A stretch of 64,000 nt of DNA from Rudaea sp. 3F27F6 (GTDB lineage Bacteria > Pseudomonadota > Gammaproteobacteria > Xanthomonadales > Rhodanobacteraceae), in the NCBI RefSeq assembly GCF_005503555.1, contig NZ_SCNG01000001.1, positions 1-64,000 of the forward strand, in the 5' to 3' direction. The notes below the pieces were generated by a model that worked only from the letters and a program-made list of their open reading frames with translations, had not been told where the DNA came from and searched no databases. This document shows positions 1,368 through 55,176 of the stretch, one piece after another (the first letter of the stretch is position 1; each line of letters starts with the position of its first letter). Both the position numbers and the translations under genes were made by a program.

Positions 1368-1760
1368 TTGGTACGCAACCGCGGTCGCCACTGTGCGAGC
1401 CCGACGCAGGAAGCGCAAGTCCCGTTCGTACCGTTTCCGCAGGGCCATATTCGAACCGCGCCGCTGTACGCCACGGCGGCGAAGCCGGGGACATTCTCCC
1501 CGGCGTCGCCTTCGGCCCAAGCCGTCAATCTCTCGGAATCTCGCATGCCGGATGATCTGAAGAAAGTTGCGCTCTCCGCCACTCTCGCAGCAGAGGTGGA
1601 GTTCCTCACGCGTTCGAGTCGGCCGATATCGATTCGCGCGCGCCCGCAATGGCAGACCGTGGATATGGCGGTCGACGTGGAAATCGACCCGGGCCGCGGC
1701 ATTCTCGATTGGGTCACCGCGCTCGGGCTCGAGCCGGTCCATCTGCAACGGGAAAATTGA
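1368..1760 (+). CDS. Doubtful hypothetical protein or gene remnant
   Basis: I do not recognise this product. The frame has G/C-rich third positions like the real genes around it, and from the ATG at 1545 it reads as a plausible 71-residue globular segment (MPDDLKKVALSATLAAEVEF onward, ending GLEPVHLQREN). It has no good start: the upstream candidates are a TTG at 1368 without a ribosome site and the internal ATG at 1545 with only a weak GGAA. The frame is open back to a TGA at 1302. It could be a small gene beginning at 1545, a 5'-truncated remnant, or chance in G+C-rich DNA. Confidence 0.25.
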   Translation: MVRNRGRHCASPTQEAQVPFVPFPQGHIRTAPLYATAAKPGTFSPASPSAQAVNLSESRMPDDLKKVALSATLAAEVEFLTRSSRPISIRARPQWQTVDMAVDVEIDPGRGILDWVTALGLEPVHLQREN

Positions 1761-1801
1761 AACGGCCGCATGGCCGGCCGCGGCGCCCGATTCCATTGAG
1801 G

Positions 1802-2503
1802 CTACTGCGATGCCTCGCCCCAGCCGAGCGGCCGCGGTGGCGGCGTACGTACGCCTTTGCGCGCACGCATATGCATACCGGCATGCTTGATCCACGCCGA
1901 TAGCTGCGCCGGAATGAACTGCGGGCCCGGCATCAGATGCGCGTGACTGATCAAGCCGTGGAGCAAGGCGGTGAACTGGGTGAACAGGGCCTTGATGTCG
2001 GCATTAGAACCCGGCGCAACCGCGAAGTAGTGGTCGATCGCGACGTCGAACACCTCGGCCTGACGCAGCAGTAGCTTGCGCAGCGCTGCGGCCAGAGCCG
2101 CATCGCGCTGACTCGCCGCAAGCAGTTCGTTGTAGGCACGATACAGCTCGGTCGCGAACAACTGCTGCCAGATCGCCTCGACCAGGGCCTGCAGGCGGTC
2201 GTCTTCCTTGGCGACCGACAACATCAGTTCGCCGAGCGTGCGGTAGATGCGTCGCAGCAGATTCTCGGCCGCGTCGATCATCAGGGCCTGCTTGTTCGGG
2301 TAGTGATGCACCTGGGCGCCGCGCGACACCCCGGCGCGACGCACGATCGAGGACAGGGTCGAGCCCGTGTAGCCGTCCTCGGCAAGACTTTCCAGGGTCG
2401 CCGCGAGCAAGCGCTCGCGCATCGCCGCGCTGCGGTCGGACTGCTTGCGCCGCGGTTTCTTCCTGGCCGGCTTCTTCGCCGCTGTGCTCGTTTTTTTCTT
2501 CAT
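1802..2503 (-). CDS. TetR-family regulator divergent from the beta-oxidation cluster
   Basis: A 233-residue TetR repressor that begins with a strongly basic tail (MKKKTSTAAKKPARKKPRRK) before the helix-turn-helix segment TGSTLSSIVRRAGVSRGAQV and HHYPNKQALM. The C-terminal domain is a typical all-helical ligand/dimer domain. The gene is transcribed away from the acyl-CoA dehydrogenase gene, sharing a 177-base intergenic region that contains a promoter and a short inverted repeat. Control of the downstream lipid operon, probably with an acyl-CoA as inducer, is inferred from this arrangement. An ATG 29 bases further upstream is possible, but the one at 2503 gives the basic tail directly. Confidence 0.8.
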   Translation of the reverse strand: MKKKTSTAAKKPARKKPRRKQSDRSAAMRERLLAATLESLAEDGYTGSTLSSIVRRAGVSRGAQVHHYPNKQALMIDAAENLLRRIYRTLGELMLSVAKEDDRLQALVEAIWQQLFATELYRAYNELLAASQRDAALAAALRKLLLRQAEVFDVAIDHYFAVAPGSNADIKALFTQFTALLHGLISHAHLMPGPQFIPAQLSAWIKHAGMHMRARKGVRTPPPRPLGWGEASQ

Positions 2504-2603
2504 CGATCGCTTTCCCAAAAGCGCTTCGGACATCGGCAGGAGCGCGGCGCTAGTGTGCAGTTTTCCATCTGCATCGGCCAGCCCGCCGCGGACGCGGCGC
2601 GAC

Positions 2604-2632
2604 TTGACTTCGCTTTCCGCCGCGGATATTTT
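2604..2632 (+). promoter_or_regulatory. Sigma-70-type promoter of the beta-oxidation operon
   Basis: TTGACT (2604-2609) and TATTTT (2627-2632) are separated by exactly 17 bases. Transcription would start near 2639, about 40 bases before the GTG of the acyl-CoA dehydrogenase and directly next to the inverted repeat at 2645-2656. Confidence 0.55.
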
Positions 2633-2644
2633 CGCATTTACATA

Positions 2645-2656
2645 CAGTCCAGACTG
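2645..2656. promoter_or_regulatory. Candidate repressor site at the operon start
   Basis: CAGTCCAGACTG has perfect 5-base arms around CA. It lies a few bases downstream of the predicted transcription start, an ideal place for a repressor such as the divergent TetR protein. Its short length makes chance occurrence possible. Confidence 0.4.
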
Positions 2657-2680
2657 CAAAATATTTCGCAGGAACCGTAC

Positions 2681-3820
2681 GTGATCCCGAGAACCCTGTT
2701 CAAGCCCGAGCACGACGAGTTCCGCCGCAACGTGCGGCGCTTTCTCGAAACCGAGTGCACCCCGCACCGCGAGCGATGGGAAGAGCAGCAGCACGTCGAC
2801 CGCGCGATCTGGAACCGCGCCGGCTCGCTCGGCATGTTGTGCATGACCATGCCCGAGGAATACGGTGGCGCCGGCGCGGACCGCGCGTTCAGCGTCGTGC
2901 TCATGGAAGAGCTGATGTACGCCGGCAACAGCAGCATCGGCTTCGTCCTGCACAACGATATCGTCGCCAACTATCTCAATAATTTCGGCAGCGACGCACA
3001 GAAGCGGCTATGGCTGCCGCAGATGGCGAACGGCGAGGTCGTCGGCGCGATCGCGATGACTGAGCCGGGCACCGGTTCCGACCTGCAGGCGGTCAAGACC
3101 AGGGCGATCGTCGACGGCGACGACTACGTGATCAACGGCTCGAAGATCTTCATCACCAACGGCTATCTGTGCGATCTCGTCGTCGTCGTCGCCAAGACCG
3201 GCGACGCCACGGGCGGCGCAGAAAACGTCTCCCTGCTTCTGGTCGAGGCCGATCGCAAGGGCTTCGGCAAGGGCAAGCCGTTGAAGAAGATCGGCATGAA
3301 AGGCCAGGACACTTGCGAGCTGTTCTTCGACGACGTGCGCGTGCCGCGCGCGAACCTGCTCGGCGACGAGGGCACCGGCTTCTTCGCCCTGATGAAGGAG
3401 CTCGCCTGGGAACGCCTAATCATTGCGATCAACGCCATCGCGGCGTGCGAAGCGGCGATCGCCTGGACGCTCGACTACGCGCGCAGCCGCAAGGTATTCG
3501 GCAAACCGGTCGCGAGCTACCAGCATTCGCGCTTCAAACTCGCCGAACTGAAAGCGGAAACCGCGATCGGCCGCGTCTTCGTCGATCGCTGCATCGAACA
3601 GGTACTGGCCGGCGAATTGAGCGTCGAAGCCGCGGCCGCGGCGAAATACTGGACCACCGATCTGCAAGGCAAGGTGATGGACGAATGCCTGCAACTGCAC
3701 GGCGGCTACGGCTACATGCTCGAATACCCGATCGCACGCGCCTGGGCCGACTCGCGCGCGCAGCGCATCTACGGCGGCACGAATGAGATCATGAAAGAGC
3801 TGATTGCCAGGAGTATGTGA
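2681..3820 (+). CDS. Acyl-CoA dehydrogenase, long/branched-chain type
   Basis: A 379-residue FAD enzyme that introduces the first double bond into an acyl-CoA in beta-oxidation. Family signatures are AIAMTEPGTGSDLQAVKT near residue 125 and the C-terminal LHGGYGYMLEYPIARAWADS. At the place where medium-chain enzymes have the catalytic Glu (IYEGT), this protein has Gly365 (IYGGT). A Glu is instead present in the helix G sequence ELAWERLII (Glu244), as in isovaleryl- and long-chain acyl-CoA dehydrogenases, so a long or branched substrate is favoured. Start is GTG at 2681 with AGGAA eight bases upstream. It is the first gene of the operon; 422 bases of repeat-containing spacer separate it from the next. 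Confidence 0.9.
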   Translation: MIPRTLFKPEHDEFRRNVRRFLETECTPHRERWEEQQHVDRAIWNRAGSLGMLCMTMPEEYGGAGADRAFSVVLMEELMYAGNSSIGFVLHNDIVANYLNNFGSDAQKRLWLPQMANGEVVGAIAMTEPGTGSDLQAVKTRAIVDGDDYVINGSKIFITNGYLCDLVVVVAKTGDATGGAENVSLLLVEADRKGFGKGKPLKKIGMKGQDTCELFFDDVRVPRANLLGDEGTGFFALMKELAWERLIIAINAIAACEAAIAWTLDYARSRKVFGKPVASYQHSRFKLAELKAETAIGRVFVDRCIEQVLAGELSVEAAAAAKYWTTDLQGKVMDECLQLHGGYGYMLEYPIARAWADSRAQRIYGGTNEIMKELIARSM

Positions 3821-3825
3821 GGGCC

Positions 3826-3863
3826 GGGATTCGGGATTCGGGATTCGGGATTCGGGATTCGGG
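3826..3863 (+). repeat. Tandem GGGATTC repeat, five copies
   Basis: Five perfect head-to-tail copies of the 7-mer GGGATTC followed by GGG, starting six bases after the acyl-CoA dehydrogenase stop. Related GGGATT units recur at 50757-50851 and, degenerate, at the start of lptE. Confidence 0.9.
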
Positions 3864-4075
3864 AAGAGCTTAAAGTCTTGCGCTTTTGATCTCTGCTCGA
3901 TCTTTTTATTCTTCGGGTCCCCGTCTGCCGCGGCGAGGGCATGACGAAAAGGCCCGCAGGGTCGGCGCGATGGATCGCGCCGATTCCGCTGCCAGTACAG
4001 GGACGTGCAGTCAGCGAACCCGGCATGTCCTCGCGAACCGCCGCAGGCGGCGCGGCATCCGGGCGCATTCTCTTT

Positions 4076-4111
4076 GGTGACTTTCTCTTGTGCGAGCAAG
4101 AGAAAGTCACC
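4076..4111. repeat. Perfect 15-bp inverted repeat with 6-nt loop
   Basis: Arms GGTGACTTTCTCTTG (4076-4090) and its exact complement (4097-4111) flank the loop TGCGAG. There is no T-run, so it is not a standard terminator. The arms resemble those of the palindrome at 16187-16214 (both read GGTnAC then TTTCT), suggesting a dispersed element family. Confidence 0.85.
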
Positions 4112-4242
4112 CGCTCGCGGGATGCGAGCGGAAAAACGAATGGACGCGCCCGCCGATTGGACATACCTGCACACAGAGTCAGATAGAAGAGCCCAAGATA
4201 CCAACCTCGTCGAAACGACGAGCCAGAACCACCGAGGACAAG

Positions 4243-6873
4243 ATGACGCAGCAATTGAGATACGACGGCAAAGTCGCCGTCATCACCGGCGCCGGCAATG
4301 GTCTCGGGCGCGCCTACGCGCTGATGCTCGGCGCGCGTGGTGCCAAGGTCGTGGTCAACGACCTCGGCGGCGGCGCGTTCGGCGACGGGAAATCGTCGAA
4401 CGCCGCGGACACGGTCGTCGATGAGATCAAGGCACTCGGCGGTCAAGCGATCGCGAACTACGACTCCGTAACCGACGGCGACAAAATCGTGAAAACCGCG
4501 CTCGACGCATTCGGCACGGTCGACATCGTCATCAACAACGCCGGCATCCTGCGCGACATCAGCTTCGCTAAGATGAGCGACGATGACTGGAATCGCATCT
4601 ATCAGGTGCACGTCTACGGCGCCTACAAGGTGACGCACGCGGCGTGGCCGGTGCTGCGCGAGAAGAACTATGGGCGCATCATTTTCACCGCGTCGGCTGC
4701 AGGCATCTACGGCAATTTCGGCCAGGCCAACTACAGCATGGCCAAGCTCGGCTTGCACGGTTTCGCCCAGACACTCGCCGAGGAAGGCCGCAGCAAAGGC
4801 ATCCACGTCAACACGATCGCGCCGATCGCCGCCTCGCGCCTGACCGAGACGATTCTGCCCCCCGACGTGCTCGCCAAGCTCAGCCCCGACTACGTCAGCC
4901 CGCTGGTCGGCTGGCTCTGTCACGAGGACTGCGCCGAGACCAAGGGCTTGTTCGAAGTCGGCGCGGGTTTTGTCGGCAAGCTGCGCTGGGAGCGCAGCGA
5001 GGGCCACTTCTTCCATGCCGGGCGCAAGATCGACGTCGAGAACGTCGCCGCCGCCTGGAACGAGATCGGCGACTTCACGCGCAAGAACGAACATCCGGCG
5101 GCGATGGCCGAAGCCTTCGCGCCGCTGCTCGCCCGCGTCGACAAGCCGAGCCTCGGCGGCAACGAATACATCGATCTCGACGAAGCACTTGCGGCCAAGC
5201 TCGAATCGGAATCGAGCTACGACGAACGCGACCTCGCCCTCTACGCGCTCGGCATCGGCGCGGCGCGCGACGCACTCGACGCGAACGAACTGAAGTTCGC
5301 CTACGAACTCGGCGACGGCTTCCAGGCGCTGCCGACCTACGCGGTGATTCCGCCGACCAGCGCGATGCTGGCGATGGTCAAGGAAGGCCGCTCGGTGCCG
5401 GGCATCCGCTTCGGCCTCGAAACCGTTCTGCACGGCGAGCAGTACACTGAAGTGTTCCGCCCGCTGCCGCCGAAGGCGAAGCTGCGTCACGTGTTCAAGG
5501 TCAAGGCCGCCTATGACAAGGCGCCGAATGCGGTCGTCGTGTTCGCGACGGAGACCTTCGACGAGAGCGGCGAACGACTCGCCTACAACGAGATGAGCGC
5601 GTTCGTGCGCGGCGCCGGCGGCTGGGGCGGCGAGCGCGGTCCGGCGGGCGAGATCAATGTGCCGCCGGCGCGCGAAGCGGATGCGACGCTCGAAGAGCGC
5701 GTCGATGCGAACCAGGCGCTGCTGTACCGGTTGTCCGGCGACTGGAATCCGCTGCACGCCGATCCGGCCTTCGCCCAGGCGTTCGGTTTCGAGAAGCCGA
5801 TCCTGCACGGCCTGTGCACCTTCGGCATCGCCGGGCGTCACGTGGTCCGCGCATTCTGTGCGGGCGACGCACGCAAGTTCAAAAGTATAAAAGTGCGCTT
5901 CGCCGAAAGCGTGTATCCAGGGGAGACCCTCGTCACGCGCATGTGGAAGGAGTCGGACACGCGCATCGTCTTCGAAACGCGCGTCAAGGAGCGCGACAAA
6001 GTCGTGCTGCGCAATGCGGCGGTCGAACTGTACCGCGAGATTCCGCAGATTCAGGCCAAGCCGGCCGTCGCCGAAGCCACACCTCGGACCGAAGCGGCGA
6101 CCACTGCGACTGCGCTGTCCGCCGCTGATGTTTTCGCTGCGATCGGCAAACATCTGGCCTTGCACAAGGGCCTTGGCGACCAGATCAAGACCTCGTTCCA
6201 ATTCGACCTGTGCGCGCCCGACTCGACCTGGACGCTCGACCTCAAGTCGGGCGACGGCGCGGTCAGACAAGGGCCGGCCGACAAGCCCGACACCACGCTG
6301 AGCCTGAGCCACGCCGATTTCATCGACATGTCGACCGGCAAGGTCGATCCGAACAAACTCTACTTCGGCGGCAAGCTCAAGATCGCCGGCAACGTGATGG
6401 CCTCGCAGAAGCTCGGCTTTCTGCAGAAGATCGATCCGAAACTGCTGCGGGATATCGTCGCTCAGCGCGGCGAGAACGCAGTGCCTGCCGCAGCCGCCCC
6501 TGCCGCGCATGCGGTGGAATCGGCGCAGGCCGCGGCGCAAGCGAGCGCCGCCGCGCCGCTCTTCGCTGCGCTTGCCGACAAGCTGAAGACGAATCCGAAG
6601 GCCGCCGACGGTCTCGGCGGCCGCGTCGTCGTGTTCAAGCTGCGCGATCCCGATGCTAGCTGGGTGATCGACCTGTCGGGCAAGACACCGAAGGTCGAAC
6701 TAGGCGAGAACGCGCAGGCGACAGCCGTATTCGGTCTGTCCGACGCCGATTTCATCGCCCTCGCCAAAGGCAACGCCGATGCGCGCGACCTGTATCAGCG
6801 CGGCAGCCTGCGCGTCGACGGTGACATGCGCCTCGCGCACGAACTCGATTTCCTCAAAGGAACACACTCATGA
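4243..6873 (+). CDS. MFE-2-type multifunctional enzyme with two SCP2 domains
   Basis: An 876-residue fusion matching the domain order of eukaryotic peroxisomal D-bifunctional protein (HSD17B4). Residues 1-300 are a short-chain dehydrogenase (TGAGNGLG at 15-22; catalytic Tyr164 and Lys168 in YSMAK). A double hot-dog enoyl-CoA hydratase 2 follows, with the signature SGDWNPLH (Asp500, His505) and [10 protein letters not shown]. Two successive sterol-carrier-protein-2 domains end the protein (about 627-740 and 770-876), whereas the animal enzyme has one. Expected reactions are hydration of trans-2-enoyl-CoA to (3R)-hydroxyacyl-CoA and its NAD-dependent oxidation. GAGGA precedes the ATG at 4243. 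The stop overlaps the thiolase start. Confidence 0.93.
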
Positions 6874-8051
6874 AACGCAAAGTCAACGTGATCGGCGTCG
6901 GCATGACCAAGTTTGCCAAGCCCGGCGCGAGTCCCGAGTATTACGAGATGGCGCGCGACGCGGGCCGTATCGCGCTCGAAGACGCCGGCATCGAGTACCG
7001 CGAAATCGCACAGGCTTACGTCGGCTACGTTTATGGCGATTCGACCTGCGGCCAGCGCGCCGTCTACGAACTCGGCCTCACCGGCATCCCGGTCGTCAAC
7101 GTCAACAACAATTGTTCGACCGGATCGACCGCGCTCTACCTCGCCCGCCAGGCGATCGAAGGCGGTCTTGCCGAGTGCGTGCTCGCGCTCGGCTTCGAGC
7201 AGATGGAGAAAGGCGCGCTCAACTCGAAGTTCAACGACCGCGAAACGCCGCTCGGCAAGTTCGCCCAGGTGATGAACGACGTGCAAGGCATGAACGGCGC
7301 GCCAGTGGCAGCGCAGATGTTCGGCGGCGCGGGCCGCGAGTACCGCTGGCGGCACGGCACGAAGAAGGAAACCTTCGGCAAGATTTCGGAGAAGGCGCGC
7401 CGGCATGCGGCGAACAATCCCTACGCGCTGTTCAATCAGCCGCTGACCCTCGACCAGATCATGGCTTCCGACGAAGTGTTCGATCCGCTGACGCGCTTCC
7501 AATGCTGCCCACCGACCTGCGGCGCTGCGGCGGCCGTGCTGTGCTCGGACGAATTCGCGGCCAAGCACAGCATCGCCAAGCCCGTGTACATCGCCGCGCA
7601 GAGCATGACGACGGACTATGCGACTTCGTTCGAGCCGCAGAGCATGATCAAGATGGTCGGCTTCGACATGAGCCGCAGTGCAGCGAAGCAGGTCTACGAC
7701 CAAGCCGGCCTCGGCCCCGAAGACGTCGACGTGGTCGAACTGCACGACTGCTTCACCGCCAACGAATTGCTGACCTACGAAGCGCTCGGCCTGTGCAAGG
7801 ACGGCGAAGCGGAAAAATTCATCTGGGACGGCGACAACACCTACGGCGGCCGCTACGTGACCAACCCTTCGGGCGGCCTGCTCTCCAAAGGCCACCCGCT
7901 CGGCGCGACCGGGCTGGCGCAGTGCACCGAGCTTGTCTGGCAATTGCGCGGCACGGCCGACAAGCGCCAGGTCGCAGGCGCGCGCGTCGCCCTGCAGCAC
8001 AATCTCGGCCTCGGTGGCGCGTGCGTCGTCACTATGTATCGCAACGATTGA
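6870..8051 (+). CDS. SCPx-type lipid-transfer thiolase
   Basis: A 393-residue thiolase of the SCP-x/lipid-transfer group, expected to cleave 3-oxoacyl-CoA (including 2-methyl-branched forms) with CoA. The nucleophilic Cys82 sits in [11 protein letters not shown]. His residues are in HDCFTANEL and in the C-terminal [10 protein letters not shown] (His342), and the oxyanion segment is [10 protein letters not shown]. Unlike animal SCPx it carries no SCP2 domain; that domain is encoded by the next gene. The ATG lies inside the preceding stop codon (ATGA) with AAGGAA upstream, so translation is coupled to the MFE-2 gene. Confidence 0.93.
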
Positions 8052-8106
8052 TTTGTTTGTTCCCGCGCCGCTGCGCCGGCGCTCATTGCAACCTTGAGGA
8101 AACCCG

Positions 8107-8427
8107 ATGGACGCCAATACCCTCGTGCAGCAACTCCCGAAAGCCTTCCGCCCGGCCGAAGCGGCCGGCAAGTCGCACACGATCCAGCTCAACATTTCGC
8201 AGCCGGCCTATGCGGTCATCGAGAACGGGGCATGCTCGATCCATTCCGGCACGGCGCCGAAGAGCGATCTGACCTTGACCGTGTCGGACGAAAATTTCGT
8301 CGAGCTGATGCAGGGCCGGCTCAACGGCGTCGCCGCATTCATGAGCGGCAAGCTCAAGGCGTCGGGTGACCTGATGCTCGCGCAGCGGCTGTCGAAGATT
8401 TTCGACGCGAGCGCGCTGCAAGGCTGA
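8107..8427 (+). CDS. Stand-alone SCP2 sterol-carrier domain protein
   Basis: A 106-residue protein consisting of a single SCP2 fold: an N-terminal helix, then strands (HTIQLNISQPAYAVIENG) and the typical SDLTLTVSDENFVELMQGRL, ending with KASGDLMLAQRLSKIF. SCP2 domains bind fatty acyl-CoA or sterols in a hydrophobic tunnel and present them to enzymes. A good TTGAGGAAA ribosome site precedes the ATG. This is the third SCP2 module in three consecutive genes; supply of substrate to the neighbouring enzymes is inferred. Confidence 0.9.
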   Translation: MDANTLVQQLPKAFRPAEAAGKSHTIQLNISQPAYAVIENGACSIHSGTAPKSDLTLTVSDENFVELMQGRLNGVAAFMSGKLKASGDLMLAQRLSKIFDASALQG

Positions 8428-8431
8428 TCGC

Positions 8432-9577
8432 ATGAGTCCGCTCGCCGGCGTGCGCGTGCTCGATCTGACCCGGCTGCTGCCGGGTCCGTTCTGCACGCTG
8501 TATCTGGCGCAGCTCGGCGCGGACGTGATCAAGATTGAAGATCCCGACGGCGGCGACTACGCACGCCTCATGTCGCCGGAACTGTTTGCGCTGATCAATC
8601 GCGGCAAGGCTTCGGTCACGCTCGATCTGCGCAAACAGACGGATGCGGAAACCTTCCGCCGCCTCGCAATCGATGCCGATGTCGTCATCGAATCGTTCCG
8701 CCCCGGCGTGATGGACAAATCGGGCTGCGGCTATGCGGCGCTCAAGGCGATCAATCCGCGCCTCGTCTATGCCGCACTGACCGGCTACGGCCAGACCGGG
8801 CCGTATCGCGACCGCGCCGGCCACGATATGAATTTCCGCGGCTATGCCGGCGAACTGGAGCAGACCGGCGCCGGCGGCGGCGCGCCCGCATCGGGCAACT
8901 TCCAGACCGCCGATCTTGCCGGCGGCGCGCTCACCTGCGCGGTCGGCATTCTCGCCGCATTGCTCAAGGCGCGCGAAACCGGCGAGGGTTCGTTCGTCGA
9001 CGTCGGCATGCTCGACGGCACGCTAGCCCTGCAGGTGGTCGCATTGTCGACCTTGCGCATGCTCGGCCACGGCCTGCCGCGCGGCGCCGACGCCTTGTCC
9101 GGCGCCATGGCGAATTATCGGGTCTATGCCTGCGCGGATGGTCGCCATCTCGCCGTCGCGCCGCTCGAGTACAAATTCTTCGTGCGCCTCTGCCGTCTCG
9201 CCGGCCGGCAGGATTTGCTGGAACTGGCGCTCTCGCCCGACGAATCCGGGCAGCCTTTGCACGACGCCCTGTCCGTACTGTTCGCCGGCAAGCCGCGCGA
9301 CGAATGGGAACGCCTGCTCGCCGGCGAAGACACTTGCGTCAGCGCAATACTGAGTCTCGAAGAAGCGCTCGCCAACGAACACGTGCAGGCGCGCGGCATG
9401 ATCGCCGATGACGCCGGCAAGCCGGCGTTTCGCCTGCCGATCCATTTCGACCGGCCGCTGCCGGAAGTCGGCGCCGCACCGGAACTCGGCGCCGACAACG
9501 CGCGCATTCTCGGCGCCGTGGTCATGGCCACCAAGGTCGACGAGGAAACCGAAATGCGCAGCGGAGCCGAGACATGA
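8432..9577 (+). CDS. Alpha-methylacyl-CoA racemase-like CaiB/BaiF family protein
   Basis: A 381-residue family III CoA-transferase-fold protein. The N-terminus (LAGVRVLDLTRLLPGPFCT) is typical of the family. The three residues needed for 1,1-proton transfer in alpha-methylacyl-CoA racemase are present: His131 in AGHDMN, Asp161 in TADLAGG and Glu246 in APLEYKFF. Their spacing equals that of His126, Asp156 and Glu241 in the mycobacterial racemase, as I recall it. The enzyme would convert (2R)- to (2S)-methylacyl-CoA so that branched chains can enter beta-oxidation. The gene starts four bases after the SCP2 stop and overlaps the next gene by four. A CoA-transferase role cannot be excluded. Confidence 0.85.
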   Translation: MSPLAGVRVLDLTRLLPGPFCTLYLAQLGADVIKIEDPDGGDYARLMSPELFALINRGKASVTLDLRKQTDAETFRRLAIDADVVIESFRPGVMDKSGCGYAALKAINPRLVYAALTGYGQTGPYRDRAGHDMNFRGYAGELEQTGAGGGAPASGNFQTADLAGGALTCAVGILAALLKARETGEGSFVDVGMLDGTLALQVVALSTLRMLGHGLPRGADALSGAMANYRVYACADGRHLAVAPLEYKFFVRLCRLAGRQDLLELALSPDESGQPLHDALSVLFAGKPRDEWERLLAGEDTCVSAILSLEEALANEHVQARGMIADDAGKPAFRLPIHFDRPLPEVGAAPELGADNARILGAVVMATKVDEETEMRSGAET

Positions 9578-10353
9578 ACCTGCACGGCGTGGCCGCAGTC
9601 GTCACGGGCGGCGCGTCGGGCCTCGGCGAGGCGGCCGCACGCGCGCTTGCGAGCGAAGGCGCGAAAGTCGCGATCTTCGACTTCAATGCCGAGCGCGGCG
9701 ACGCGGTCGCACGCGATATCGGCGGCGTGTACTGCAAGGTCGATGTGACCTCGGACGCCGAAGTCGATGCGGCATTCACGCATGCGCGTACGATCCACGG
9801 ACAGGAACGCGTGCTGATCCATTGTGCGGGCACGGGATTCAACGGGCGCACCGCGTCGCGGTCGAAGTCGAGCGGTGAAATCCGTCATTTCCCACTCGAA
9901 CATTTCGAAGCGCTGATCAGGATCAATCTCGTCGGTACGTTCCGCTGCATCGCCAAGTCGGCGGCCGGCATGCTCGCGCTCGACCCGCTCGAAGGCGGCG
10001 AACGCGGCGCGATCGTCGGCACCGCCTCGGTCGCGGCCGAAGACGGACAGATCGGCCAAGCCGCCTACTCGGCCTCGAAGGCCGGCGTTGTCGGCATGAC
10101 TCTGCCAATCGCGCGCGACCTGATGGACGAAGGCATCCGCGTCAACACGATCATGCCGGGCACGTTCGACACGCCGCTGCTGCATCTGCTGCCGCCCGAG
10201 GTACAGGCTGGGCTCGACGCCGCGGTGCCGTTTCCGAAGCGCGCCGGCCGCCCCGACGAATTCGCCTCGCTCGCGTTGGAGATGTGCCGCAACAGTTATT
10301 TCAACGGCGCGGTCGTCCGCCTCGACGGCGCGATCCGCATGCCACCGCGGTGA
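9574..10353 (+). CDS. 3-hydroxyacyl-CoA dehydrogenase type 2 (HSD10-like SDR)
   Basis: A 259-residue short-chain dehydrogenase closely resembling HSD17B10/HSD10: nucleotide site TGGASGLGEAAARAL, the segment GTASVAAEDGQIGQAAYSAS with catalytic Tyr and Lys, then KAGVVGMTLPIARDL, and the C-terminal NGAVVRLDGAIRM. HSD10 oxidises L-3-hydroxyacyl-CoAs, 2-methyl-3-hydroxybutyryl-CoA and hydroxysteroids. With an R-specific dehydrogenase already present in the MFE-2, this gives the cluster an enzyme of a second specificity. The ATG overlaps the racemase stop by four bases. Confidence 0.88.
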   Translation: MNLHGVAAVVTGGASGLGEAAARALASEGAKVAIFDFNAERGDAVARDIGGVYCKVDVTSDAEVDAAFTHARTIHGQERVLIHCAGTGFNGRTASRSKSSGEIRHFPLEHFEALIRINLVGTFRCIAKSAAGMLALDPLEGGERGAIVGTASVAAEDGQIGQAAYSASKAGVVGMTLPIARDLMDEGIRVNTIMPGTFDTPLLHLLPPEVQAGLDAAVPFPKRAGRPDEFASLALEMCRNSYFNGAVVRLDGAIRMPPR

Positions 10354-10393
10354 TTTAGATACTTGGGAAAACCGATCCGGACGAGGCATCACG

Positions 10394-12064
10394 ATGAGCA
10401 TCGCGCCAGGCATCTTCGATTACGTGCACCTGCTTCTGCAGCGCGGCCGCGACATACCGGAGCGGCCGTGGCTGTATCAACCCATCGATGGCACGGAACG
10501 CGTCTACACGTGGGGCGAATGCGCATCCCAGGTGCAGCGCATGGCCAGCGCGCTGCGCGCTCGCGGCTGGCCGCCCGGCAGCCGCATCGCAATTTCCGGG
10601 CGCAATACGGCGCATTGGTTTCTCGCCGACCTCGCCATCACCATGGCCGGCTACGTCAGCGTCGGCCTTTATCCGAAACAAAGCGCAAAGGTCACGAAGT
10701 ATATTTTTGAGCATGCCGAAGTGCGCGCGGTCTTCGTCGGTCCGGCGCTCGACGTCGACGAGCTGATCACCGCGGTACCTGCGGGCATTCCGCGCTGGTC
10801 GCTGCCCTACCCCGGCGTGCCGCAGCTCGACGACGGCTGGGACGCGATGCTCGAAGGCCACACGCCCTACACCGACTATCGCCTGCCGCCGCCGGAGCAG
10901 ATGGTGATGCTCGTCTACACCTCGGGCACGAGCGGTTTTCCAAAGGCGGTGATGCTCAGCGCGGGCAATGTACAGTTCACCGCCCAGCGTCTGCTCCAAC
11001 ACATCCTGATCCCGCACGGTTTCATGCAGCCCGGAGGCAGCGACCGCCTGCTGTCGTATATGCCGCTTGCGCACTTCTTCGAGCGGCTCGTCGGCGAAGG
11101 CGCTTCGCTGATCACCGGCGCGCAGGTGCACTTCCTCGAAAACCTCGAGGTGTTCGCCGCCACGCTCGCGCGCGTGGCGCCGTCGATGTTCTGCGGCGTG
11201 CCGCTGGTCTACAGCCGCATTCAATCCGGCGTGCTGAAAAAGATGCCGCACCTCGACACGCTGGTGCGCGTTCCTGTGGTCAACCGCATCGTCCGGCGTT
11301 CGCTGCGCAAGGCGATCGGTCTGCAGAATGCGAAATTCATTCTGTCCGGCTCCGCGCCGATCGCTTCGTCCCTGGTCGAATGGTACGAGCGGCTCGGCAT
11401 CCGCGTGCTCAACGGCTGCGCGCCGACCGAAGCGTTCGCTTACATCGCCTGCAATCTCAACTGGGCCAACCGCATCGGCTCGACCGGCAAGGTGCTGCCC
11501 GACGCCGAGGTGAAGCTCGGCGAGGACGGCGAAATCCTCGTGCGCCATCCGGGTGTCATGCTCGGCTATCTCAAGGACGAGGAAGCCACGCGCAACGCGT
11601 TCACCGAAGACGGTTTTCTGCGCACCGGCGACAAGGGCCGCTTCGACGAGGACGGCTATCTGCACGTGATCGGCCGCACCAAGGAAATTTTCAAGACGAT
11701 GAAAGGCAAATACGTCGCGCCGGCACCGATCGAAGAAGCAGCGCGCACGCCCGACGTCGAAACCTGCTGCCTCGTCGGCCCCGGCGTGCCGCAGCCGATC
11801 CTGCTCGTATCGCTCGCGCCGGACGCGCTGAAGAAACCGCGCGACGCGATACAGCGCGATCTCGCTTCGGCGATGGAACGCGCAAACGCGTCGCTCGACT
11901 CGAACGAGCAGATCGGCAAGATCGTCATCGTCGCGCAACCGTGGACGATCGACAGTGGCTTGCTTACACCGACAATGAAAATCAAGCGCGAGCCGATCCA
12001 GCAGCACTATGCCGAGCTGATCGCGCGCGAGTCGGCCAATCGCAAGGCCATCGTATGGGAATGA
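10394..12064 (+). CDS. AMP-forming long-chain acyl-CoA ligase
   Basis: A 556-residue ANL-superfamily ligase that activates a free acid to its CoA thioester using ATP. Visible motifs are the phosphate-binding loop VYTSGTSGFPKAVML, the adenine/acyl segment NGCAPTEAFAY (replacing the common YGMTE form), the core FLRTGDKGRFDEDGYLHVIG with GRTKEIFKTMKGKYV, and the catalytic lysine region LTPTMKIKR near the C-terminus. Family resemblance is to FadD15-type long-chain ligases. It starts 40 bases after the dehydrogenase and overlaps the following hydrolase by 10 bases. It would supply the CoA esters used by the rest of the operon. Confidence 0.9.
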   Translation: MSIAPGIFDYVHLLLQRGRDIPERPWLYQPIDGTERVYTWGECASQVQRMASALRARGWPPGSRIAISGRNTAHWFLADLAITMAGYVSVGLYPKQSAKVTKYIFEHAEVRAVFVGPALDVDELITAVPAGIPRWSLPYPGVPQLDDGWDAMLEGHTPYTDYRLPPPEQMVMLVYTSGTSGFPKAVMLSAGNVQFTAQRLLQHILIPHGFMQPGGSDRLLSYMPLAHFFERLVGEGASLITGAQVHFLENLEVFAATLARVAPSMFCGVPLVYSRIQSGVLKKMPHLDTLVRVPVVNRIVRRSLRKAIGLQNAKFILSGSAPIASSLVEWYERLGIRVLNGCAPTEAFAYIACNLNWANRIGSTGKVLPDAEVKLGEDGEILVRHPGVMLGYLKDEEATRNAFTEDGFLRTGDKGRFDEDGYLHVIGRTKEIFKTMKGKYVAPAPIEEAARTPDVETCCLVGPGVPQPILLVSLAPDALKKPRDAIQRDLASAMERANASLDSNEQIGKIVIVAQPWTIDSGLLTPTMKIKREPIQQHYAELIARESANRKAIVWE

Positions 12065-13047
12065 ATTCCTCGGCGCCGGAGTCGTCGGCGAACGCCGCGG
12101 CCGTCGCGCACGTCCCGACTCACCCGGCGCTGCGTGGCGGCGAACCGGTCGAGCTGATCGCCGCCGACGGCGTGCGCCTGCGCGGCGAGCTGCTTATGCC
12201 GCGCGAGCCGCCGCGCGTCGCGATCGTGCTGTCGCACGCGATGATGGCGAATCGCCGCTCGCTCGACCGCCCCGAAGGCAAAGGCCTGCTCAGCGCGCTG
12301 TGCCGAGCCGGCGCCGCCGTGCTCTGGATGGATCTGCGCGGCCACGGCCAGAGCGATCTCGCCAACAGCAAGGGCGCGAACTGGACTTACGACGATCACG
12401 TTGCCGACGCGGGCCTAATGGCTGCCGAACTCGCGCGCCGATTTCCGGACGCGGAGCGCGTCGCCGTCGGCCATAGCCTGTTCGGTCACGCGGCGCTCGC
12501 GCACCAGATCAGAGTGACGGAAGGCGCGATCGCCCGCGGTGTCGCCTTCGACCGCTTCGTCCTGCTCGGCGTCAACGTATGGACACCGGCACTGGAACCG
12601 AATCGTGCGCGCTGGTGGGCGAAACGGGCCGTTGTGGCCGTGCTGCTCGGTCTGACGCGCCTGTACGGCCGCTTCCCGGCACGCCGTCTGCGTATAGGCT
12701 CGGACGACGAAGCGCTGGGCTTCGTGCAGCAAATGCACGAATGGACGCGAAGCTACTGGAGCGACCGTGCCGGGCATTCCTTCCGCACCTCGATGCGCCT
12801 GGTCAAAGTGCCCATGCTCAGCATCGCCGGCGCGAACGACCGACTACTCTCGGTGCCGCAATGCCAGCAGAATTTCGTCGCCCAGCTCGGCGGCAAGGTG
12901 GAGCACCGCGTCGTCGGCCGTGCGACCGGCTATGCCTGCGATCCGGGCCACATGGATCTCGTGCTCGATGCACGTATGGAAAAGCTCTGGGACGAGGTCG
13001 CGCAGTTCGCCGTCGCGGGCGGCCGAACGGATGCCGCCAGCCAATAA
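12055..13047 (+). CDS. Alpha/beta hydrolase
   Basis: A 330-residue alpha/beta-hydrolase. The nucleophile elbow is AVGHSLFGHAAL (Ser in GHSLFG). The acid is probably Asp in GANDRLL and the base His in DPGHMDLVLD. It lacks a signal peptide. Its start overlaps the ligase by 10 bases, so it is co-translated with the lipid operon and likely hydrolyses an ester, lactone or acyl-CoA intermediate. The exact substrate cannot be read from the sequence. The ATG at 12055 has AAGG upstream; the ATG at 12061 is an alternative. Confidence 0.85.
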   Translation: MGMNSSAPESSANAAAVAHVPTHPALRGGEPVELIAADGVRLRGELLMPREPPRVAIVLSHAMMANRRSLDRPEGKGLLSALCRAGAAVLWMDLRGHGQSDLANSKGANWTYDDHVADAGLMAAELARRFPDAERVAVGHSLFGHAALAHQIRVTEGAIARGVAFDRFVLLGVNVWTPALEPNRARWWAKRAVVAVLLGLTRLYGRFPARRLRIGSDDEALGFVQQMHEWTRSYWSDRAGHSFRTSMRLVKVPMLSIAGANDRLLSVPQCQQNFVAQLGGKVEHRVVGRATGYACDPGHMDLVLDARMEKLWDEVAQFAVAGGRTDAASQ

Positions 13048-13076
13048 AAAAGCCACCGCGGCGGGTGGCTTTTTTA
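13046..13076. terminator. Bidirectional intrinsic terminator
   Basis: A stem AGCCACC / GGTGGCT (13051-13070) is flanked by A5-6 on the left and T6 on the right, so it ends both the plus-strand lipid operon and the minus-strand tRNA-Pro transcript. Confidence 0.85.
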
Positions 13077-13083
13077 GCAAATC

Positions 13084-13160
<77 letters not shown>

Positions 13161-13268
13161 ACTTGGGTGGTCCGCTGCCTTGACGGGATTGCGCGGTGAA
13201 CGCGCTGCGGCAGCGAGCCGCGCATGATAATGGTCGATCGCCTCGCGCGCAACCTCTGCGCGAAGAAT

Positions 13269-13910
13269 TCACTCGGCGGGGACAACCGTGATCTTCACGC
13301 GCATGCGGTCACCCGGATCGAACGGCAGGCGCGCCATGTAGATTTCGCCCTTGTAGCGATACTCGACGTCGTAGCCGATGATGCGGCGTTCCGGCTGTGC
13401 GTGTGGGCGGATCGTGCGTACGTCACGACAGTCGCGCAGCGACGCGGCGACGGCATCGCGCTCGGCGTCGGCTTGCTGCTGCATCTGGTTGTTCGTCGCC
13501 TGGTCCTGCGCGGCGGCGATGCGATTGCCGGCGACGCCGCCGGCGACCGCGCCGACTGCCGTCGCGGCCTTGTTGCCGTCGCCGTGACCGAAAGCATGAC
13601 CGATGACGCCGCCGATCAGCGCGCCGATCACCGTGCCGGTCGCGCGGTTGTCGGCCTGTTCGTTGTTGCCGTTGGCCGGCGGAGGCGGCGGTGACTCGTC
13701 ATTGCAATTGGCCAGCGCCGCACGGTTCTGCTCCGCCTCGACGGCGGGATCGGGCGCGGGCTCGTAAACGGCATCGACCCGCAGCACGTCGGCCCAACCA
13801 TAACGGGTCGACTCCGCAGCGATCGGCTGCGGGTGCGCGGCGGTGTGGTCCTGCGCGTGGCAGAGTTCCACAAGCAGCATGCTCGCAATGAGAATGCCGG
13901 GTAGCTTCAT
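13269..13910 (-). CDS. Exported glycine-zipper protein
   Basis: A 213-residue protein with an N-terminal signal peptide (MKLPGILIASMLLVELCHAQ), a Pro-rich linker, then a glycine-zipper hairpin (TGTVIGALIGGVIGHAFG and AATAVGAVAGGVAGNRIA) like those of the 17-kDa surface antigen/SlyB group. The C-terminal third is a beta-rich domain ending FDPGDRMRVKITVVPAE. An outer-membrane-associated stress or permeability role is common in the family but not shown here. I chose the ATG at 13910, which gives a compact signal peptide; an upstream ATG at 13934 is possible. Confidence 0.75.
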   Translation of the reverse strand: MKLPGILIASMLLVELCHAQDHTAAHPQPIAAESTRYGWADVLRVDAVYEPAPDPAVEAEQNRAALANCNDESPPPPPANGNNEQADNRATGTVIGALIGGVIGHAFGHGDGNKAATAVGAVAGGVAGNRIAAAQDQATNNQMQQQADAERDAVAASLRDCRDVRTIRPHAQPERRIIGYDVEYRYKGEIYMARLPFDPGDRMRVKITVVPAE

Positions 13911-14152
13911 TTTGTTCACGGCTCCAAACGACATGTTTCGACGATCGCGCTGGCGATGGCGAACTCATAAAACGTGTCCGCATCGCGGCATCGGTTCCCC
14001 CCGATCGTCGCGCGCGCCACGTTGAACTGGCCGGCATTACAGCATGGGCAGGCTGAATGCGGACTAAGGAAAACCTGAAGAAATCCGCAGCGAAACCGCG
14101 TCACACCAAGGGTTTAGCGCAACTTTGGAAGCTGAACGCAAAGCCGTTGCGC

Positions 14153-54492: not shown

Positions 54493-55176
54493 TCACGCAG
54501 CGTACTTCCATTGCAATCCGTGAGTCAGCGATCTGGGGCCATACACAAAATGCAGGACGCGGCGGCGGCCGGTGCCGTTCGCTTTGGACGAGGCATGCAG
54601 CAGCAAAGGACTCATGAGCCATATCGTTCCTTCATTCGCCAAGCATTCCCTCTGCTCGCCTGCGTTTCTGAGTTCAGCGATCACGGAAGGCATCACTCGG
54701 CCGTAACGATGAGAGCCGGGAATCACCCTCAACGGACCGTCCTCGCGGCCGCACGGGTCCAGGTGCAGCCGAACGGCAATCATCTGCTGAAGAATGTCGA
54801 TCGGCGCTTGCACGAAGAGCGTTCCGTCTTTTTCGGACCAACCGCCGAGGCTTGCGTCGTCCACTCGCCGCAGCACGGGAATGCTCAAATCCTGGTGAAA
54901 CGCCACGAGCCAATTCTGCGCGGGCGATTTCTCGAAATAAGTACACTGCACGGCGACGTAATCGGCCGGAATAAGCCGCGCAAGCGCAGGATGTCGTTGC
55001 AGTTCTTGCGCGAGCCCGGCGCACCAGGACGTCCCCAGCAAGCGGCGATTGCCCACCGACTCCGTCTGCTCGATTTGTGACGACAGGGATCGGCAGTCCG
55101 CGACAGTCAATACGTCCCGAAGGACGATCAATCCGTCCTTGGCAAACGCATCGAGCGCCGTTTCGCTCGGGATCAA
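54493..55176 (-). CDS. PhyH-family Fe(II)/2-oxoglutarate dioxygenase
   Basis: 227 residues of the phytanoyl-CoA dioxygenase family. It has the N-terminal pattern AFAKDGLIVLRDVLTVADC, metal ligands in FHQDLS (HxD) and the distal His in LLLHASSKANGTGRRRVLHF, with the Arg that would bind 2-oxoglutarate. The start appears to be TTG at 55176, whose last bases form the rsfS stop (TTGA); no Met occurs nearby. The substrate is unknown, since the family hydroxylates many small molecules. It is an insertion between rsfS and rlmH. Confidence 0.78.
   Translation of the reverse strand: MIPSETALDAFAKDGLIVLRDVLTVADCRSLSSQIEQTESVGNRRLLGTSWCAGLAQELQRHPALARLIPADYVAVQCTYFEKSPAQNWLVAFHQDLSIPVLRRVDDASLGGWSEKDGTLFVQAPIDILQQMIAVRLHLDPCGREDGPLRVIPGSHRYGRVMPSVIAELRNAGEQRECLANEGTIWLMSPLLLHASSKANGTGRRRVLHFVYGPRSLTHGLQWKYAA

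Follow-up and report, generated by a model that had tools for sequence, protein, structure and literature searches.

A bacterial gene cluster resembling the peroxisomal branched-chain beta-oxidation pathway in Rudaea sp. 3F27F6

INTRODUCTION

Can the enzymes that animals use to degrade branched chains in the peroxisome be encoded together in one bacterial gene cluster? The question is raised by eight adjacent genes at positions 2681-13047 of the 64,000 nucleotide stretch of Rudaea sp. 3F27F6 analysed here (the window, which covers the initial 64 kb of contig C8; host genome 5.70 Mb; G+C 65%). Animal peroxisomal branched-chain beta-oxidation employs AMACR, ACOX2/3, MFE-2/HSD17B4 and SCPx, and its first step is carried out by an oxidase. 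An earlier note on this DNA had proposed that the eight genes form an operon that reassembles this pathway and degrades a methyl-branched or sterol/isoprenoid side-chain acid.

The gene cluster is real and probably serves methyl-branched acyl-CoAs, and among the loci examined it is the only one with the full set in one place. We consider it reasonably likely that it is an auxiliary operon for the beta-oxidation of 2-methyl-branched acyl-CoAs, acting via (3R)-hydroxy intermediates as in the animal peroxisome. Protein families, catalytic residues, gene order, conservation of the MFE-2-SCPx pair and co-occurrence of the racemase all support this proposal, which is nevertheless unproven. The chemistry is already known; what is new is the assembly and the eukaryote-like enzymes. 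No description of a bacterial MFE-2/SCPx/AMACR operon was found in the parts of the open-licence PMC literature that were available, which does not prove its absence.

RESULTS AND DISCUSSION

The eight genes and their products

Families were assigned with Pfam, and kinship to solved structures by sequence match, in bits. All eight genes are intact open frames on the + strand with no internal stops:

2681-3820, + strand: acyl-CoA dehydrogenase (ACAD) of the LCAD type, GTG start (Pfam, structures, alignment)
4243-6873, + strand: MFE-2 (D-bifunctional protein), with (3R)-hydroxyacyl-CoA dehydrogenase, hydratase 2 and two SCP2 domains (Pfam, structures)
6870-8051, + strand: SCPx-type thiolase, SCP2-thiolase type 1 (PRK08256, 698 bits against a cut-off of 436; structures)
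8107-8427, + strand: free SCP2 lipid carrier, 55 bp downstream of the thiolase gene (Pfam)
8432-9577, + strand: alpha-methylacyl-CoA racemase (AMACR/MCR type) with H131/D161/E246 (CoA-transferase family III in Pfam; alignment)
9574-10353, + strand: HSD10-type short-chain 3-hydroxyacyl-CoA dehydrogenase (Pfam SDR, structures)
10394-12064, + strand: acyl-CoA ligase, AMP-binding with AMP-binding_C_3 (solved relatives all distant, best 95 bits)
12061-13047, + strand: alpha/beta hydrolase, S33-like (Pfam Hydrolase_4 on the enclosing frame)

The enzyme identities given in the earlier note are borne out by Pfam and by the matches to solved structures. The best structural match of the ACAD is LCAD (409 bits), followed by the bacterial ACAD 2pg0 (391 bits); the next scores 246 bits and IVD (1ivh) 225 bits. 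The catalytic Glu is kept at the Glu291 position. In MFE-2 the Pfam order within one chain is SDR, MFE-2 hydratase, MaoC and two SCP2 stretches, so that the SCP2 content of the protein had been recognized but its number needs correcting to two. The nearest solved structures are the fly, Candida, human and rat MFE-2/D-bifunctional enzymes, and the alignment with the fly enzyme spans residues 4-597.

The thiolase scores 534 bits against SCP2-thiolase type 1 and 224 bits against the next family, and it exceeds the cut-off of PRK08256, an NCBIfam lipid-transfer protein. Its motifs NNNCSTG, HDCF and GHPLGATG are identical to those of SCP2-thiolase type 1 in the alignment; the nearest structure is one that we take to be the zebrafish enzyme. 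In the HSD10-type dehydrogenase the best structural match scores 237 bits and 1u7t 220 bits, and 3-hydroxyacyl-CoA dehydrogenase or HADH2 is the name given to 13 of the 16 matches at E<=1e-35. The hydrolase is possibly an esterase or lipase.

The best structural matches of the racemase are Far and MCR of Mycobacterium tuberculosis. Residues H131, D161 and E246 align with H126, D156 and E241 of MCR, its catalytic triad, and the AMACR triad read earlier from the sequence is thereby upheld. Four family-III CoA-transferase homologues are present in the genome, and the H/D/E triad is found only in that of the cluster, the others having Y/D/N, Y/D/T and F/D with the third position uncovered. A CoA-transferase identity was rejected on account of the triad, which is missing from the three paralogues.

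The genes share one orientation, as had been claimed. Overlaps of 4 nt (ATGA) occur at three junctions (MFE-2/SCPx, racemase/HSD10 and ligase/hydrolase), and the remaining gaps within 4243-13047 are 55, 4 and 40 nt. The claim of overlaps does not extend to the first gene: the ACAD and MFE-2 genes are set apart by 422 bp containing repeats. The cluster is presumably transcribed as one unit, with inclusion of the ACAD in one transcript with MFE-2 only putative because of this gap. SCPx (E<=1e-100) and full MFE-2 (E<=1e-150) are each single-copy in the 5.7 Mb genome and lie within 5.3 kb together with the triad racemase. Chance clustering of these three sole-copy genes was rejected, the crude probability of such closeness being 3.5e-6.

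Comparison with the animal pathway and predicted reactions

The parallel with the animal peroxisome holds for the racemase with its triad, the domain order of MFE-2, SCP2, and the SCPx-type thiolase, which is 61% identical to that of zebrafish. It fails at the first step, where an acyl-CoA dehydrogenase replaces the oxidase. Animal SCPx carries a C-terminal SCP2 domain in the same protein as the thiolase; here the thiolase lacks this fusion and SCP2 is encoded by a separate neighbouring gene. The bacterial set also differs in the two SCP2 domains of its MFE-2, in the additional HSD10, ligase and hydrolase, and in the lack of an organelle.

The hydrolase may release an acid from an ester, and the ligase would form the CoA ester from the acid. 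The racemase would convert (2R)-2-methylacyl-CoA to the (2S) form, and the LCAD-type dehydrogenase would produce the 2-enoyl-CoA. MFE-2 would then hydrate this and oxidize the (3R)-hydroxyacyl-CoA, and the SCPx thiolase would cleave 3-keto-2-methylacyl-CoA into propionyl-CoA and a shortened acyl-CoA. The SCP2 domains could serve as lipid carriers, and HSD10 would take (3S)-hydroxy or short 2-methyl-3-hydroxyacyl-CoAs. Elsewhere in the genome, 3HCDH_N matches frames that are 691 and 801 aa long, as FadB-type proteins are, and the operon is therefore probably extra to normal beta-oxidation.

The MFE-2-SCPx pair in other genomes

SCP2-bearing MFE-2 is rare. Full MFE-2 (E<=1e-150) occurs in 2 of 274 genomes of the class, this one included. 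SCPx is found at E<=1e-100 in 3 of 60 relatives, again with the own genome included (0/15 among other genomes of the genus); across the phylum, 20 of 398 genomes have it at E<=1e-120, this one counted. Named genomes were scanned for MFE-2 with query patterns from two sequences; counts are among the matches listed, and the sample is biased by this choice of patterns and by the partial listing of matches.

Among these matches together with genome G399, SCPx directly follows SCP2-bearing MFE-2 in all seven other loci with a continuing contig:

L021, Alcanivoracaceae metagenome-assembled genome (MAG): SCP2-bearing MFE-2, SCPx next
L022, Polyangia: SCP2-bearing MFE-2, SCPx next
L023, Moraxellaceae: SCP2-bearing MFE-2, SCPx next
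L024, Myxococcales: SCP2-bearing MFE-2, SCPx next
L025, Gammaproteobacteria: SCP2-bearing MFE-2, SCPx next
L026, Kofleriaceae: SCP2-bearing MFE-2, SCPx next
L134, G399: SCP2-bearing MFE-2, SCPx next

Two further loci, L019 and L020, fall outside this count since the contig ends inside MFE-2. As in the window, MFE-2 in the seven loci has two to three SCP2 matches, and the SCPx that follows is 76-81% identical to that of Rudaea. Among the matches listed, an ACAD gene precedes MFE-2 in L019, L020 and L021. Unlike the window, the compared stretches of the seven loci yielded no racemase, HSD10 or free SCP2 gene. The full set in one operon was found only in the window, since none of the nine comparison stretches shows a racemase.

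Other arrangements were also seen. Fused dehydrogenase-hydratases without a detected SCP2 or SCPx neighbour are present in L027, L028, L036, L038, L041, L044 and L054. In G034, a member of the same family, an SCPx of 76% identity (L013, 4492-10339) lies near SDR, DUF5938/saccharopine-dehydrogenase-like and Phenol_MetA_deg proteins, and the remaining operon proteins are unmatched at this locus at E<=1e-8. The thiolase by itself is therefore not diagnostic, and the G034 neighbourhood suggests that it may have another role there. In contig 43 of G463 (L236, 7090-15584), two ACADs, a dehydrogenase, a hydratase 2, a 46% thiolase, a ligase and SCPx stand in a row; a racemase was not detected.

Co-occurrence of the racemase

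A role of the pair in branched-chain breakdown would predict a racemase in the same genomes. Among the matches listed, the H/D/E triad is present in the best family match of all eight searched genomes with SCP2-bearing MFE-2 and of a ninth, G096 (9/9); completeness is not stated for seven of these nine. Two of small size, G399 (2.3 Mb) and G713 (1.9 Mb), have one racemase-family match each at E<=1e-15. Across the class a match at E<=1e-40 occurs in 56 of 274 genomes. When the class of the window, taken to be Gammaproteobacteria, is pooled with the named Gammaproteobacteria, such a match is present in 6/6 genomes with MFE-2 vs 54/272 (Fisher p 8e-5). All 29 class loci inspected (L171-L199, that of G096 among them) carry the triad, which indicates that racemases occur without SCP2-bearing MFE-2 too. 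In the Nevskia MAG G710, an ACAD (70%) lies directly upstream of a 66% racemase.

The stretches around other SCPx genes give independent support. In 4 of 16 such stretches, each of 19-25 kb, a triad racemase is found with an SDR and an LCAD-type ACAD (53-55%):

L008, Variovorax: unfused SCPx cluster with triad racemase
L011, Rhodococcus plasmid: unfused SCPx cluster with triad racemase
L136: unfused SCPx cluster with triad racemase
L137: unfused SCPx cluster with triad racemase

Like the window, these clusters combine, within 19-25 kb, SCPx and an SDR with an LCAD-type ACAD, a triad racemase and a match to the ligase family, and the Rhodococcus plasmid has MaoC hydratases too, as annotated. 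They differ from it in that dehydrogenase and hydratase are separate, SCPx is 63-67% identical and the gene order is different; in L137 the strand of the racemase also differs. On a Roseibium plasmid (L010, 5608-13185), SCPx lies near an AtuA-family acyclic-terpene gene and biotin-carboxylase genes.

Substrate and alternative roles

The most likely substrates are long-chain or isoprenoid methyl-branched acids, a choice that sequence cannot decide; isoprenoid acids in particular are possible. The available text of one study reports that LCAD accepts branched substrates (PMC11153573), and racemase mutants are described as unable to grow on polyisoprene and on isoprenoids with methyl branches (Arenskotter 2008, as cited in the accessible part of PMC8538451). 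The methyl-branched part of the earlier proposal is upheld by the link between racemase and MFE-2 across genomes and by the four unfused clusters; its sterol part is not, for reasons given below. AtuA has no match in the genome, and the control sample likewise had none. A PhyH-family (phytanoyl-CoA dioxygenase-like) match at 54559-55146 on the - strand is far from the operon; it is one of five in the genome, for which no link to the operon was found.

Several observations weigh against a role in the degradation of branched chains. The triad is present in all 28 inspected class loci from genomes without SCP2-bearing MFE-2, and the association of racemase and MFE-2 may reflect a general lipid-degrading lifestyle. 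A racemase was found beside SCP2-bearing MFE-2 in none of the nine comparison stretches, which are 3.8-23 kb long and of which two stop within MFE-2. Of the 16 stretches with SCPx genes elsewhere, 12 likewise gave no whole triad racemase: the family members in L009 and L010 do not have the triad, L139 has a piece cut by the end of the stretch, and nine have none at all. The only frame of the methylmalonyl-mutase family in the genome is IcmF, a fused isobutyryl-CoA mutase (1642 bits against a cut-off of 1500; G000:C13, L238, 1602-5456), so that the disposal of propionyl-CoA is only presumed. Moreover, according to the available text, Alcanivorax borkumensis raises FadAB on pristane (PMC6850023), so that branched acids need not take the MFE-2 route, and six terms for these enzymes gave no match in the accessible portion of a paper on pristane in Dietzia (PMC12472514).

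The same proteins could instead act, through the D-3-hydroxy route, on ordinary acyl-CoAs with long or very long straight chains, with the racemase as a minor helper. The myxobacterial loci L022, L024 and L026 have the pair without a detected ACAD or racemase neighbour (for L026 within 1.4 kb upstream only), and SCPx also accepts straight chains. LCAD likewise takes them, in the available part of the same structural study (PMC11153573). The presence of a triad racemase in all nine other genomes with SCP2-bearing MFE-2, among the matches listed, and the FadB-sized frames already in the genome speak against this role, which we regard as unlikely. Removal of sterol or bile-acid side chains is more improbable still. 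In its favour, the same enzymes work on bile-acid side chains in animals. The LCAD structure is also reported, in the text available, to accommodate THC-CoA (PMC11153573). Against it, the genome has no match to KshA_C, a result tempered by a control that matched in one genome, under the cut-off; no other ring-degradation gene was searched. Pro132 of LCAD, near the start of helix E, is tied to bulky substrates (PMC11153573). This position is Ile in the Rudaea enzyme and proline in none of the 14 bacterial ACADs aligned, the Rudaea enzyme included.

A steroid-aldolase identity of the thiolase was rejected, since it has HDCF instead of YDHF/YDCY. The proteobacterial Shy/Sal and actinobacterial ChsH1-ChsH2/Ltp2 systems share with the window a thiolase fold and a MaoC-type hydratase, but in the accessible account they are retro-aldolases that have DUF35 partners and the motifs YDCY/YDHF (PMC12329534); Pfam detected DUF35 in none of the operon proteins scanned. 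A biosynthetic role, in which the chains of a signal or membrane lipid would be shortened as for nematode ascarosides, is very improbable: the ligase, hydrolase and TetR regulator fit catabolism, and a glycosyltransferase or exporter is found by Pfam in 0/8 operon proteins. In its favour, DAF-22 is an SCPx. Such enzymes shape the side chains of nematode ascarosides, in the part of the source available (PMC5986272). Degradation of 2-methyl-branched acyl-CoAs is the role that we favour for the cluster.

Upstream region and flanking genes

2604-2665, + strand: two promoter-like matches upstream of the ACAD gene, containing a 12 bp palindrome at 2645-2656
1802-2500, - strand: divergent regulator of the TetR family (BetI-like) with an uncertain start (the longer frame 1802-2953 matches Pfam TetR_N and TetR_C_6)
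3825-4111, + strand: stretch between the ACAD and MFE-2 genes, with CGGGATT repeated in 5.7 copies and a perfect 15 nt inverted repeat (4076-4090/4097-4111)

From its position, the divergent TetR gene is the probable regulator of the operon; every NCBIfam match to it is under the cut-off. A second TetR gene lies further out, past the first, and a tRNA-Pro gene follows the cluster on the opposite strand. The promoter-like matches are weak, as shuffled sequences give a similar number (three sites in 1700-14100 vs a mean of 1.7, sd 1.4). The palindrome CAGTCCAGACTG at 2645-2656, between the divergent TetR gene and the ACAD gene, is present in a single copy in the window and is a possible operator. 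It was not found in the ACAD or MFE-2 upstream stretches compared from relatives, though L024 has an exact copy at 9285. The CGGGATT/inverted-repeat stretch has no counterpart in about 136 kb of other loci of the genome (overlaps not removed).

Relationship to the eukaryotic enzymes

In trees, the thiolase and the dehydrogenase of MFE-2 fall with eukaryotic peroxisomal enzymes. The eight MFE-2-linked thiolases, that of the window included, share 59-63% identity with zebrafish SCPx, vs 50-60% for the other 36 sampled; the ranges touch because of L006 (59.7%) and L101 (59.1%). In a tree without two long branches, a group of ten rows at 96/94 unites zebrafish SCPx with these eight and L006, and a nine-row group that excludes L006 stands at 78/43 only. 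With the long branches kept, zebrafish SCPx joins L082, one of the two.

The human MFE-2 dehydrogenase shares 58-66% identity with the ten bacterial ones and 58% with that of the fly. In a quick tree, in which the fungal and fly branches are long, all four eukaryotic rows and the ten bacterial rows belong to a 26-row group (SH-aLRT 98) apart from 59 others; three sphingomonad rows are also inside this group, and one Candida domain is placed with Pseudomonas rows (96). For hydratase 2, the ten bacterial rows and L208 form one group (100/98), which Arabidopsis adjoins at 81/86. Human and fly are elsewhere, in a weak group (44/86), so that the eukaryotic grouping is unconfirmed for this domain; by identity the nearest to the human hydratase is the actinobacterial L027, at 49%.

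An earlier study, in the part available, held FOX2 to be alpha-proteobacterial in origin and the origin of SCP2 to be undetermined (PMC1472686). The groupings for two of the three domains point in another direction, in trees whose eukaryotic sampling is tiny and which do not resolve the direction of transfer. It is conceivable, if doubtful, that the eukaryotic peroxisomal MFE-2 and SCPx have their nearest living relatives in the bacterial MFE-2-SCPx pair, and that both enzymes entered eukaryotes together as a linked module of gammaproteobacterial or myxobacterial origin, not from the mitochondrial ancestor.

Significance

Deficiencies of AMACR, D-bifunctional protein and SCPx are human diseases of the peroxisomal pathway. 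If the proposed function is correct, the cluster would provide a tractable bacterial system for this disease pathway and a candidate bacterial route for the degradation of methyl-branched acids. The pair also makes the origin of peroxisomal MFE-2 and SCPx a testable question.

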